Shown here one piece after another: positions 1 to 4,988 of a stretch of 64,000 bases of DNA (positions are counted from its first letter, which is position 1; the number at the start of each line of letters is the position of its first letter). A model generated the notes under the pieces. The model was not told the DNA's origin and did not search any database. It saw only the letters and a list, made by a program, of their open reading frames with translations. Position numbers and translations under genes: made by a program. This stretch comes from Acidimicrobiaceae bacterium (GTDB taxonomy: Bacteria; Actinomycetota; Acidimicrobiia; Acidimicrobiales; RAAP-2), in the NCBI GenBank assembly GCA_003141095.1, contig PLKM01000015.1, positions 22,931 through 86,930 of the forward strand. Direction: 5' to 3'.

Positions 1-1
1 C

Positions 2-502
2 GCCCTTTCGATTCAGGCCGGCACCTCCAATCTCCCGGCCATTGTTTCGAGCACCCTCGCCCACCCCAACTGGGTCTCGGGGCCGTCGCGGCTTTTGGCG
101 CTCGTAGCCCTGGTGATCGTGATCATCGCCGAAACCGGCAGGCTGCCGGTCGATAATCCCGCAACCCACCTCGAACTCACCATGATTCACGAGGCCATGA
201 TCCTGGAATACGCGGGGCCGGAGTTGGCGCTCGTGACCCTCGGTGGCGCGATGCGTCTCGGACTGCTCTTCTCGCTCGTCGCCAACCTCTTCTTCCCGTG
301 GGGCATTGGTTCGAATGGATCACTCGTTGGCCTTCTCGTGGGCGTGCTCGCGCTCGCGCTCAAGACGTCGGTGATCGCAGTGGGCGTGTCGCTCATCGAG
401 ATCCACAGCGCCAAACTTCGTCTCTTTCGTCTACCCGAGCTGCTCGCCGGTGCCTTTGTGATGTCGGTGCTCGCAGTGATCACGGGACTGGTGACGCGAT
501 GA
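2..502 (+). CDS. HyfC/HycD (NuoH)-like membrane subunit of a group-4-hydrogenase-related complex, 5' truncated by window edge
   Basis: Reading frame open to the window start; motif AETGRLPVDNPATHLELTMIHEAMILEYAGPELAL typical of HyfC/HycD/NuoH; followed by HyfE/F/G-like genes. Confidence 0.85.
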   Translation, partial: ALSIQAGTSNLPAIVSSTLAHPNWVSGPSRLLALVALVIVIIAETGRLPVDNPATHLELTMIHEAMILEYAGPELALVTLGGAMRLGLLFSLVANLFFPWGIGSNGSLVGLLVGVLALALKTSVIAVGVSLIEIHSAKLRLFRLPELLAGAFVMSVLAVITGLVTR

Positions 503-1158
503 ACGCCGCCACCTACACCGGCGCGCTGGAGCTGGCGGCGGGAGCCGTGCTCGTCTCTGCCGTGATGACCCTGTGGCGGCGTCAGGTGCGCACCATCGTC
601 ACCATGCTCAGCCTCCAGGGCATTTCATTGGCGGCCGTCGCGTTGATTCTCGCGGCGCACGAACACGACGGCGCGCTCGCCCTCACCGGTCTCCTGGTTC
701 TCATCGTGAAGGGTGTCATCGTACCCGGTCTGTTGCGCCGGATCGCCCGTCTTGATCCGCGTTCGCGTGAAACGACGCCCCTCGTGAACGTGCCGGCTTC
801 CCTGGTCTTTGCCGCGGTGCTCATTGTCTTGTCCTACGTCGTGAGCGCCCGGGTGACGTCGGTGGCGCCGTCGGTGGCGACTCGCATGGTGCCCATCGGT
901 GTCGCGACCGTACTCGTCGGGTACTTCATGCTCGTGACGCGACGTCGGGCCGTCTCCAAGGTTGTCGGTCTCATCCTCGTCGACAACGGCATCGCGCTCG
1001 TCACCTTCCTTCTGACGTCCGGCGTGCCCCTGATTGTCGAACTGGGATCATCCCTCGACGTCTTGTTGGTCGTGGTGGTCTTGCAGTTCCTCGTCATCAA
1101 CATGGGCGAGCAGCTTCGACGCTCCGAACTCGATCAGATGAAGGAGCTCCACGACTGA
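499..1158 (+). CDS. HyfE-like membrane subunit
   Basis: ATG at 499 overlaps the previous stop (ATGA); hydrophobic 219 aa protein in the position of HyfE/HycP; position in operon. Confidence 0.75.
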   Translation: MNAATYTGALELAAGAVLVSAVMTLWRRQVRTIVTMLSLQGISLAAVALILAAHEHDGALALTGLLVLIVKGVIVPGLLRRIARLDPRSRETTPLVNVPASLVFAAVLIVLSYVVSARVTSVAPSVATRMVPIGVATVLVGYFMLVTRRRAVSKVVGLILVDNGIALVTFLLTSGVPLIVELGSSLDVLLVVVVLQFLVINMGEQLRRSELDQMKELHD

Positions 1159-2624
1159 TGCTCTGCGAAATCACCCTCGTCGTCCCGCTGCTGGTGGGTA
1201 TGCTCGCCGCCGCGTGCCCGTGGCATCGCTGGATTGGTTGGACCATGGCGGGATCCTCCGCGACCGTACTGGCCCTCGGCGTGGCCCTGTGCCTGCGAAC
1301 AGCGTCCAAGGCGCCGATCACGGCGCTGCACGGATTCCTTCGCGCCGACTCCCTCAGCTCCTTCATGGTCGTCGTCATCGGCGTGGTGTCGCTGCTCGCC
1401 ACGCTCCAAACGCCGCGCACCATGCGCCAGGAGATGGAGGCGGGCATCACCACGCGTCGCTACGCCGGCCACTACGCCACGTTGATGCAAGCCTTCATCA
1501 CCTGCATGCTGCTCGCCGTGCTGGCGGCGAACCTCGGCGTGCTGTGGGTCTCCATCGAGGCCACGACGATCGCCACGACGTTCCTCGTCAGCCACCGGCG
1601 CACCGATAGGTCGCTCGAGGCCTCCTGGAAGTACCTGATGCTGTGCTCGGTCGGCATCGCCCTCGCCTTCTTCGGCACCGTGCTCGTCTACTTCGCCGAG
1701 CTGCACGTCGGCGGAGGGCATCTCCAGAGCGCGTCACTCGACTGGACGTCGGTGATGGCCAGTGCCCATCACCTCAATCCCGACGTGATGCGTCTCGCGC
1801 TCGCCTTGCTGATCCTGGGCTACGGCACCAAGGTGGGGCTGGTGCCGATGCATAGCTGGCTTCCCGACGCGCACAGCCAAGCCCCCGCGCCCGTGTCGGC
1901 ATTGATGTCGGGCGTGCTGCTGTCGGTCGCCTTCTACGCCCTCTTGCGCTTCAAGGCGATTGCCGACGCCGCGTTGGGTCCAGCCTTTCCACGCGAGCTC
2001 TTCATCGTCGTCGGCCTCGCCTCACTGGTACTCGCCGCGACGATGCTAATCGCCCAGCGCGACTACAAGCGCATGCTGGCCTATTCGAGCATTGAGCACA
2101 TGGGACTGCTCGCGCTGGGCGCCGCCGCCGGAAGTCCCCTCGCCATCGCCGCGGTCCTTCTGCACATTCTCGGTCACGGTGTCACCAAGTCGGTGCTGTT
2201 CCTCTCGTCGGGCGAGATCCACCACGCCGCCGGAACCACCGAGATCGCGAAGGTCTCCGGACTCTTGTCACGACAGCCGGTGCTCGGCGGCGTCTTCGGC
2301 TTCGGCCTGCTCGCGCTCTTGGGATTCCCCCCCTTCAGCCTCTTCGTCAGCGAGTTCACCATGGCCCGGGCCGAGGTGGACTCCGGGCTCTGGTGGGTCG
2401 TCGCCCTGTCGCTCGTCTGTCTCGCGGTGATCTTCGGGGCCATAGCCATGCATGGTCGACAGATGCTCCTGGGCGACGCGGTGACGACCAACGGACCCAC
2501 CGCGACCGTTCGATCGGTCGCGCTTCCGCTCATCACGGGTCTCGTGTTCTGTGCGGTAATCGGCATCTCGGCGTGGCCCCTCCAGTCACTGCTGCACGAC
2601 GCGGCTCGCGTGGTGGTGCGATGA
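1158..2624 (+). CDS. HyfF-like proton-conducting membrane transporter (NuoL/M/N family)
   Basis: 488 aa, antiporter-like motif KVGLVPMHSWLPDAHSQAPAPVSALMSG; operon context. Confidence 0.88.
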   Translation: MLCEITLVVPLLVGMLAAACPWHRWIGWTMAGSSATVLALGVALCLRTASKAPITALHGFLRADSLSSFMVVVIGVVSLLATLQTPRTMRQEMEAGITTRRYAGHYATLMQAFITCMLLAVLAANLGVLWVSIEATTIATTFLVSHRRTDRSLEASWKYLMLCSVGIALAFFGTVLVYFAELHVGGGHLQSASLDWTSVMASAHHLNPDVMRLALALLILGYGTKVGLVPMHSWLPDAHSQAPAPVSALMSGVLLSVAFYALLRFKAIADAALGPAFPRELFIVVGLASLVLAATMLIAQRDYKRMLAYSSIEHMGLLALGAAAGSPLAIAAVLLHILGHGVTKSVLFLSSGEIHHAAGTTEIAKVSGLLSRQPVLGGVFGFGLLALLGFPPFSLFVSEFTMARAEVDSGLWWVVALSLVCLAVIFGAIAMHGRQMLLGDAVTTNGPTATVRSVALPLITGLVFCAVIGISAWPLQSLLHDAARVVVR

Positions 2625-4102
2625 CGGGCATCCGGTCCATCGATGAGATCGGGGTCGATGAACTTCACGGGCGCTCGACGACGCTTCTCGACGCCGGTCA
2701 CCGTTTGGCGACGGTCGTGGCGCACGACGACGGCGATTTCCTACGCGTCGTGTACGTCTTCACCATGGGACCGCCGGACGTGCGACACGAACTCGTGGTC
2801 CGACTCAACGCCACGAGCCCGGTGGTGCCGTCGCTGAGCGATCTCTCCTTCGTCGCGAGCCGGTTCGAGCGAGAGCTCCACGACACCTTCGGCATCGTCC
2901 CTGCCGGCCACCCGTTCGTGCGCCCGCTCGTGCGCCACCAGCACTGGCCCGAGCGCTGGTATCCCCTTCGCCGCGACGCCGGTCCCATGCCGGCGATGCG
3001 CGACGACAGCGCTCCCTATCCGTTCATTGAGGTCCAGGGCGCCGGCGTGTACGAAATTCCGGTCGGCCCGGTGCACGCCGGGCTCATCGAGCCGGGGCAC
3101 TTCCGCTTCTCCGTGGTGGGCGAGACCATATTGAAAATGACCGCCCGGCTGTGGTACGTGCACCGGGGCATCGAGCGGATGCTCCAAGGCGCCGACGTCG
3201 CGAGCGGACTTCAGATCGCCGAGCGGATCTCGGGTGACACCGCCGTCGGCCACTCGCTGGCCTACTGCATGGCCGTGGAGGAAGCCCGCGGGCTCGTCGT
3301 GTCCGACGATGCGTTGGTGCTACGCGCAGTGCTGTTGGAGATGGAACGGCTGTACAACCACGTGGCCGATGTTGGCGCGCTGTGCAATGACGTCAGCTTC
3401 GGCGTCGCCGACGCCCGCGCGTCGGTCATTCGCGAGCAGTTGCTGCGCCTCAACGAATCCGTGACGGGTCATCGGTTCTTGCGCGGTGCGATCAGCGTGG
3501 GTGCGACCAGCGTGAAGAGGCTCCCCAGTCGATCGGAACTTCTCGACGTCGCCGAGCAGTTCGAGGCACTGGTGCGACTCGCAACCTCCAACAGCGTGGT
3601 CGTGGACCGCTTCGAGGGAACGGCCGTGCTTTCGGCGAAAGACGCCCTCGCGATCGGCACGCTCGGTGTCGTGGCCCGGGCATCGGGGCTCGCGATCGAC
3701 GCGCGCGCGCAGCACCCTTTTCTGGCGTCACCCTCCCCCTTCGAGCCGGTGATTCATCAGGCGGGTGACGTGATGGCCCGATTCGACCAACGCGTCGGTG
3801 AAGTTCGCGCCTCGCTGCAGCTCGTCGAACATTTCTGCACGATGGCGACGCCGCTGGCTGGCAGCAGTGAGGTGGTGACGCCCGCCCTAGGCTCGGGGCT
3901 CGGCTTGGTCGAGGGATGGCGCGGCACCATTGTCCATCGCGTGGAACTTGACCGCGACGGAATGATTTCGCGTGGTCGAGTCGTCGATCCGTCCTTTCAT
4001 AACTGGCCCGCCCTTTCCATTGCATTGGCCGACACGATCGTGCCGGATTTCCCGCTGGCCAACAAGAGCTTCAACCTTTCGTACGCCGGCAACGACCTGT
4101 GA
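2621..4102 (+). CDS. HyfG-like (NuoC-NuoD fusion) large subunit lacking NiFe-ligand cysteines
   Basis: ATG at 2621 overlaps HyfF stop; NuoC-like FERELHDTFGIVPAGHPFVRPL; L1-equivalent ERISGDTAVGHS and L2-equivalent DPSFHNW without Cys. Confidence 0.85.
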   Translation: MTGIRSIDEIGVDELHGRSTTLLDAGHRLATVVAHDDGDFLRVVYVFTMGPPDVRHELVVRLNATSPVVPSLSDLSFVASRFERELHDTFGIVPAGHPFVRPLVRHQHWPERWYPLRRDAGPMPAMRDDSAPYPFIEVQGAGVYEIPVGPVHAGLIEPGHFRFSVVGETILKMTARLWYVHRGIERMLQGADVASGLQIAERISGDTAVGHSLAYCMAVEEARGLVVSDDALVLRAVLLEMERLYNHVADVGALCNDVSFGVADARASVIREQLLRLNESVTGHRFLRGAISVGATSVKRLPSRSELLDVAEQFEALVRLATSNSVVVDRFEGTAVLSAKDALAIGTLGVVARASGLAIDARAQHPFLASPSPFEPVIHQAGDVMARFDQRVGEVRASLQLVEHFCTMATPLAGSSEVVTPALGSGLGLVEGWRGTIVHRVELDRDGMISRGRVVDPSFHNWPALSIALADTIVPDFPLANKSFNLSYAGNDL

Positions 4103-4345: not shown

Positions 4346-4777
4346 GTGAAGCGCCTTGTGGCCGCTGCCGTGATAACTGTTGCCTACGCGTGGTGGGCCA
4401 CCAGTGTCGCCCCCTTCACCGCGATTTGCTACGTGCTGATCGCCGTCCCGTCAGTCCTCGCGGTGGTGCTCTACGCCGCTGTGGGTGCCTTTTCACGTGA
4501 CCGGACGGACATCGCGCGCTACTACCAGGCAAGGGCCGGCGACTCGTCGTTCTCGAGCATCACCCCGTGGTTGCTCGTGCTTTGCTGTGTCCTGGCTCTC
4601 GAGAGCGTCGGACTCGCTCTCGGCGGTCGGTCACCGGGCGTCCCCACGCTCAGCACGGCGGTCGATCATCTTCTCGTGGAGCACTGGGAACGCGGCATTC
4701 TCTTCGTGCTGTGGGTATGGGTGGGGGCCAGTCCGCTCTGGCGCCTCTGGCGACAACGACAGAAGAATCAACGCTGA
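4346..4777 (+). CDS. small integral membrane protein
   Basis: 143 aa, GTG start, hydrophobic segments. Confidence 0.6.
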   Translation: MKRLVAAAVITVAYAWWATSVAPFTAICYVLIAVPSVLAVVLYAAVGAFSRDRTDIARYYQARAGDSSFSSITPWLLVLCCVLALESVGLALGGRSPGVPTLSTAVDHLLVEHWERGILFVLWVWVGASPLWRLWRQRQKNQR

Positions 4778-4778
4778 T

Positions 4779-4988
4779 ATGTACGCGACGATCGGCTGGC
4801 TCGTACTCTTAGGGGCCAGCATCCTTATCGAGGCATACGGACGATTCCGGTCGGCGAGGACCTCGAGTCTGGCCCGATTGGGAGCGCTGCTCGCGACACG
4901 GATTCCGGGTCGAGTCGTCCTGCTGCTGATCTGGGTATTTGTCGGCGTGCATCTCTTCGCGCGCTACACCCTTTCCCATCACTCGTAG
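4779..4988 (+). CDS. small membrane protein, 69 aa
   Basis: MYATIGWLVLLGASILIEAYGRF...; immediately downstream of the previous ORF, ATG at 4779. Confidence 0.5.
   Translation: MYATIGWLVLLGASILIEAYGRFRSARTSSLARLGALLATRIPGRVVLLLIWVFVGVHLFARYTLSHHS

Follow-up and report, generated by a model that had tools for sequence, protein, structure and literature searches.

An actinobacterial energy-converting hydrogenase-related complex without NiFe ligands, and relatives that have also lost their [4Fe-4S] cluster ligands

We analysed a window of 64,000 nt from an Acidimicrobiaceae bacterium (assembly GCA_003141095.1, contig PLKM01000015.1, forward strand; G000:C26:22931-86930 in our numbering), which begins inside a seven-gene plus-strand operon for a membrane complex with hydrogenase-like subunits. 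This complex almost certainly belongs to the described family of energy-converting hydrogenase-related (Ehr) complexes. Its HyfG/EhrL-like large subunit has the fold of a NiFe hydrogenase subunit and none of the four Cys that ligate the metals, and the residues of the former NiFe pocket and of the membrane ion paths are conserved in relatives. The operon encodes a complete complex of the Mycobacterium tuberculosis Rv0082-Rv0087 type, and we lean towards the full mechanism proposed for it below. The complex in the window adds a member to a known kind; the new finding is a set of Ehr relatives whose small subunits have also lost the ligands of the [4Fe-4S] cluster.

The large subunit lacks all four NiFe ligands

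The HyfG-like protein (493 aa; window 2621-4102, plus strand) joins a NuoC-like domain to a NuoD/hydrogenase-like domain and matches formate hydrogenlyase HycE (7z0s_E; phmmer, 4e-55). In alignments with HycE and MbhL (6cfw_L), ERISGDTAVGH lies opposite DRICGICGxAH, such that the Cys-Gly-x-Cys of the L1 site is replaced by Ser204-Gly-Asp-Thr207 (3230-3241; Ser204 at 3230-3232 and Thr207 at 3239-3241). An earlier note on this DNA had placed L1 correctly and had recorded the absence of all four ligand Cys, which the alignments confirm. Its L2 site, DPSFHNW (3986-4006), was misplaced: in the alignment this segment lies opposite AATYSNW/AATYANW, which in HycE precedes L2 by about 30 residues. The HycE-type L2 sequence DPCYSCTDR aligns instead with the C-terminal NLSYAGNDL, and the true L2 site is Ser487-Tyr-Ala-Gly490 (NKSFNLSYAGNDL-stop; 4079-4090, with Ser487 at 4079-4081 and Gly490 at 4088-4090), in place of Cys-Tyr-Ser-Cys. 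The ligand positions are therefore occupied by Ser204, Thr207, Ser487 and Gly490, rather than by the Ser, Thr, Ser and Asn originally read. Two further residues align with proton relays proposed for Mbh (PMC11228991): Glu157 (3089-3091) with MbhL Glu21, and also with Nqo4 His38, and His211 with MbhL His75.

The protein stops directly after NDL, at the mature C-terminus, and has no HycE-type C-terminal extension. We take the endopeptidase cleavage point of HycE to correspond to this end; since the HyfG-like protein ends where processed HycE ends, no endopeptidase would be needed. Lack of the extension is not decisive by itself, as the Cys-bearing relatives L017-L021 lack it too. An AlphaFold model of the protein (predicted local distance difference test score, pLDDT, 91.6; predicted template modelling score 0.93) has HycE as its best Foldseek match (template modelling score, TM, 0.92). 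The sole stretch with pLDDT below 50 is the beta1-beta2 loop, residues 151-158; this loop lines the cavity in the membrane-bound sulfane sulfur reductase (MBS), the membrane-bound hydrogenase (MBH) and complex I (PMC7684303).

A scan of GTDB genomes confirmed at least 580 relatives; Mycobacterium, Streptomyces, Pseudonocardia, Nitrospira, Methylobacter, Acidobacteria, Rokubacteria and bacteria of the candidate phyla radiation (CPR) are among the matches listed. All Cys-less large subunits long enough to include the C-terminus carry Ser at the first L2 position, and nearly all carry Gly at the second, across more than 10 phyla. We conclude that the replacement of the ligands is not due to chance. 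In total, 65 HyfG positions are conserved both in Ehr complexes that bear the [4Fe-4S] cluster and in those that do not, among them G205, D206, N481, K482, S483, S487, Y488, G490 and D492.

The operon encodes a full set of Ehr subunits

The 5′ part of the operon was read from the upstream sequence (L003). The operon runs, on the plus strand, from an ArsR-family regulator (L003:9618-9965, upstream of the window; PF01022, 9e-12) through a HyfI/NuoB-like small subunit of 168 aa (L003:9962-10468, equal to G000:C26:19961-20467, also upstream; PF01058, 5e-27), a HyfB-like antiporter subunit (L003:10471-12468, upstream as well; PF00361, 5e-55) and a HyfC/HycD/NuoH-like membrane anchor (L003:12465-13433; PF00146, 9e-36) to HyfE-, HyfF- and HyfG-like genes. 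The anchor gene starts 467 bases before the window, and its 3′ part occupies window positions 1-502. The HyfE-like membrane subunit (219 aa; 499-1158) matches the NCBIfam hydrogenase 4 membrane subunit at 3e-18, its start overlaps the end of the HyfC-like gene (ATGA), and a homologue occupies the equivalent position in relatives. The HyfF-like antiporter subunit (488 aa; 1158-2624) matches PF00361 at 4e-53 and NCBIfam hydrogenase 4 subunit F at 9e-116. Pfam and NCBIfam agree on the subunit names, with all NCBIfam matches to subunits of the complex falling below the curated cut-offs. Neighbouring genes overlap or almost touch; in the window, gene ends and starts lie at 502/499, 1158/1158 and 2624/2621, bearing out the HyfC-E-F-G-like order with short overlaps first read from the letters. 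The statement that no HyfI/NuoB-like gene follows is true of the downstream side, but such a gene sits upstream of the window, with the HyfB-like gene after it; both were found once the upstream sequence was retrieved, as the earlier note had proposed.

The small subunit matches HycG (6e-33) and MbhJ (2e-32), and has all four Cys of the [4Fe-4S] cluster at normal spacing. E148, E200, E214, E220, E225 and E289 of the HyfC-like subunit, and E134, K225, K304 and K344 of the HyfF-like subunit, are conserved in relatives. On the 3′ side of the operon lie two genes for small membrane proteins (window 4346-4988) with weak matches to DUF6186 (PF19684).

Phylogeny places the complex in the Ehr family

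In the tree of large subunits, the window's protein (P0001) falls in a 38-row actinobacterial clade (support 100) within a larger Cys-less group (89). Published Ehr members from Nitrospira moscoviensis and CPR bacteria are its direct relatives there, and it groups with them apart from HycE. Mycobacterial relatives, whose HyfG identities are about 53-58%, also belong to this fully supported clade. The published order of M. tuberculosis Rv0081-Rv0087 (regulator, two oxidoreductase genes, hycD, hycP, hycQ, hycE; PMC6901956) is that of the window operon, a likeness drawn from the published order, the sequences compared being those of mycobacterial relatives; it agrees with the similar subunit order that the earlier note had given for Rv0082-Rv0087.

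The family of energy-converting hydrogenase-related complexes goes back to Marreiros et al. 2013, as cited in PMC10284858, and Ehr complexes have been described in Nitrospira (PMC10284858, PMC12342949), CPR bacteria (PMC7304191), Geobacter (PMC7894505) and Margulisbacteria (PMC6349859). In these papers the function is described as unknown, or else ion translocation driven by redox chemistry or a connection with formate is proposed. Like the window complex, published Ehr complexes have group-4-hydrogenase-like subunits, no NiFe Cys and antiporter-like membrane subunits; the window complex differs in its short small subunit (168 aa) with a single cluster, and in the ArsR gene of its operon. Loss of the Cys, the presence of the subunit set in one operon and grouping with published members all agree with the Ehr-type assignment of the earlier note. 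The small subunits of L038, L039, L103, L121 and L125 differ from the window's one-cluster form in being fused to a ferredoxin-type CxxCxxCxxxCP domain.

Several Cys-bearing relatives (L017-L021, L108, L113, L121 and L125) share an Ehr-like C-terminal context, NKSFELCYxCxD, and have no extension. Relatives with this context and all four Cys, L046 included, are possible endopeptidase-free hydrogenases near the Ehr branch point. Loss of the NiFe ligands counts as two changes with a NuoD outgroup and as one, with a support of 17, without it; in a concatenated tree the Cys-bearing rows are scattered, and the loss may have been single or multiple. The Nitrospirota large subunits of L114 and L123 have Ser ligands (SGVS or SGTS, and SYSGCDM); in one tree they fall with Cys-bearing relatives, and the NiFe site may have been lost a second time here.

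Hydrogen, quinone and sulfane sulfur as substrates

Its close similarity to HycE, together with a group 3b-type NiFe hydrogenase elsewhere in the window genome (at the end of the 6.8 kb contig C14, L034), could be taken to mean that the complex is still a hydrogenase, with metal ligands other than Cys, or else a decaying relic. We find this scarcely credible. Ser, Thr, Ser and Gly cannot make the known NiFe site, and the replacement motif is strictly conserved across phyla, which rules out decay. HypD and HypF, the two families by which hyp genes were tested, were not found in the window genome, and HypD is missing from 12 of 16 genomes with Cys-less subunits, including those of Actinopolymorpha pittospori (a 10.6 Mb contig) and Cryobacterium levicorallinum. 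The absence of maturation genes, put forward earlier for the sequence following the operon, thus extends to these two families in the genome, but it is weak evidence, since the genome is 93% complete and does contain a group 3b hydrogenase; the missing hyp genes may reflect an assembly gap, and the HypD count in the 16 other genomes is the stronger evidence. Formate hydrogenlyase HycE/HycG (7z0s) shares with the window complex the fold, the order of NuoC and hydrogenase domains and the proton-relay Glu. In contrast, the window operon lacks the NiFe Cys, the C-terminal extension, a HycB-type FeS protein and a formate dehydrogenase. With neither ligand Cys nor extension, the complex is not a hydrogenase or formate hydrogenlyase, as the earlier note had argued, and automated names of that kind do mislead for what is an Ehr-type complex.

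The overall fold is also that of NuoCD, and the head and NuoH-like anchor are homologous to those of complex I, which raises the question of a quinone reductase passing electrons from the cluster to quinone in the former NiFe pocket. This is unlikely. The quinone ligands of complex I are absent (Nqo4 His38 corresponds to Glu157, and Tyr87 to Gly205), and the small subunit has the hydrogenase-type CxxC rather than the tandem CC of complex I. Unlike complex I, the window operon has no NuoE/F/G/I-like gene, and the genome already encodes a true complex I. The same signature is present in CPR and Omnitrophota genomes that lack any UbiA-family prenyltransferase; this is suggestive only, because UbiA is so broad a quinone marker that only its absence is informative, and these metagenome-assembled genomes are incomplete.

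A third possibility is reduction of sulfane sulfur, as in Pyrococcus MBS (6u8y), which, like the window complex, belongs to the complex I superfamily and has no NiFe; it is a characterised complex that pumps ions nonetheless (PMC7684303). MBS has a three-Cys cluster with an open Fe, has lost the equivalent of MbhL E21 and keeps two NiFe Cys (PMC7684303), whereas the window complex keeps all four cluster Cys at normal spacing, keeps Glu157 and has no NiFe Cys. We regard sulfane sulfur reduction as very improbable.

Relatives have lost the ligands of the [4Fe-4S] cluster

In 60 Cys-less Ehr loci, the window included, all four cluster Cys are kept at every position, and we conclude that selection acts on the cluster across most Ehr complexes, the window's among them. 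However, of the 91 small subunits taken from related operons, 16 retain no more than one of these Cys, and five retain none. The one-Cys form reads GSTNACEQE / GDDAIDGG / PGDPP in Daviesbacteria, Thermoleophilia and two further Actinomycetota, with GSDNACEQE in Staskawiczbacteria; the zero-Cys form, GSTNAEE / GDG / PGDPP, occurs in other CPR genomes. Phmmer alignments to MbhJ and to HycG independently put Thr, Asp and Asp at three of the ligand positions. Overall, the ligand Cys are replaced by Thr, Ser, Asp, Glu, Gly or Asn, and the NiFe ligands are gone from the same complexes, leaving no recognisable redox centre in them; nor did we find a compensating set of conserved Cys in their other subunits. 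Three or four cluster Cys are lost in L040, L041, L098, L110, L115, L116 and L141-L148 (for example, L098:3239-3826).

In all other respects the cluster-less complexes look intact. Their former NiFe pocket is conserved as in cluster-bearing relatives, and the ion-path Glu and Lys of HyfB, HyfF and HyfC are 94-100% conserved, a few positions excepted. In these complexes the small subunit is better conserved than any other, with a mean identity of 0.737, compared with 0.684 and 0.724 in cluster-bearing groups. No second NuoB-like protein was found in nine of the ten CPR assemblies searched, or in two Microbacteriaceae.

The concatenated tree places cluster losses at three points. The first is a 14-row clade (99) of CPR bacteria and some Actinomycetota. 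The second, in Microbacteriaceae (Cryobacterium and others; L076, L077, L082, L086 and L152-L162), lies inside the window's own actinobacterial clade and has a step-wise pattern: the fourth cluster Cys is missing from each of the eight genomes that have the complex, and three are missing from two of the eight. Operons and pocket motifs are intact in the three Microbacteriaceae inspected. The third, L149, is long-branched and retains a ferredoxin domain; we therefore consider this loss doubtful and do not rely on it. We found no published description of cluster loss in Ehr complexes in the limited collection of literature searched, and the Ehr papers cited here are silent on it.

These losses bear on an explanation in which the Ehr pocket is not a redox site. 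Ion movement would then be coupled to ligand binding or to a proton-coupled reaction (hydration or hydrolysis, for instance), or the complex would be a ligand-gated ion exchanger, and the [4Fe-4S] cluster, where present, would be structural or regulatory and repeatedly lost. The repeated loss with no compensating Cys, the retained pocket and ion paths, the high conservation of the small subunit and the lack of a second NuoB-like protein all speak for it. Against it stand the 60 loci that keep all four Cys, the window's among them, the members whose small subunit carries a fused ferredoxin domain, which is what electron input would lead one to expect, and the doubtful standing of L149. Since relatives manage without the cluster, we give a non-redox mechanism for the whole family a substantial minority of our confidence. 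In the same vein it is possible, though we would not presume it, that within the complex I superfamily one branch functions with no redox centre at all, the job of the pocket being non-redox and proton-coupled family-wide, Rv0082-Rv0087 included. On that redox-free reading, the NiFe site and then the [4Fe-4S] cluster would have been lost in the 14-member CPR/Actinomycetota clade, and independently in Microbacteriaceae.

Proposed mechanism

The mechanism towards which we lean for this complete Ehr complex of the Rv0082-Rv0087 type is as follows. The antiporter-like HyfB and HyfF subunits, with HyfE and the NuoH-like HyfC, would form an ion-translocating membrane arm, and the HyfG-HyfI pair, with one [4Fe-4S] site, the cytoplasmic head. 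The former NiFe pocket appears to have been rebuilt from Ser204-Gly-Asp206-Thr207, Asn481-Lys482-Ser483, Ser487-Tyr-x-Gly490-x-Asp492, Glu157 and His211. It would bind a small protonatable substrate other than H2, whose protons would be shuttled by Glu157 and His211, the counterparts of the residues aligned above. Turnover would move ions through the Glu channel of HyfC and the Lys-Glu paths of HyfB and HyfF. Electrons for the lone cluster could come from a soluble carrier such as ferredoxin, the least secure step. Reading of the sequence of contig C14 assigns CooS-/CooF-like genes beside its group 3b hydrogenase genes; the CooF-like protein could be considered as a donor to the Ehr complex.

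Several observations weigh against this scheme. Beyond the small subunit, the operon encodes no FeS protein that could supply the single cluster, no entry point for electrons is visible in it, and the absence of the cluster from 16 relatives speaks against obligatory electron transfer. Glu157 is replaced by Gly, Ala or Asp, and His211 by Asn, Tyr or Gln, in a few relatives. No conserved substrate, donor or partner gene was found beside the operon: a search for partners such as formate dehydrogenase, ferredoxin or carbonic anhydrase returned mainly ArsR regulators in actinobacteria and sigma-54 response regulators elsewhere, and no partner gene is conserved beside the cluster-less operons. Scattered transporters also recur near Ehr operons. 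The scheme itself was derived computationally, from sequence and a predicted fold. The earlier note had called the complex an ion-translocating redox module. Ion translocation by the Ehr complex is probable and well supported by the conserved residues, but a redox role is not firmly established, as both close and distant relatives lack the cluster; because these lost it with pocket and membrane arm unchanged, the term "redox module" is unsafe for the family as a whole.

Implications

The corrected L2 site and the shared C-terminal motif NKSFNLSYxGNDL provide a clean annotation signature, which is useful because genes of this sort often carry the name formate hydrogenlyase. Ehr complexes are widespread, including in mycobacteria and nitrifiers, their substrate is not known, and proposals to date treat them as redox pumps. 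Intact and highly conserved Ehr operons with neither a NiFe site nor [4Fe-4S] ligands offer a direct test of that assumption. If the cluster-less complexes still move ions, machines of the complex I type can run on a drive other than electrons.

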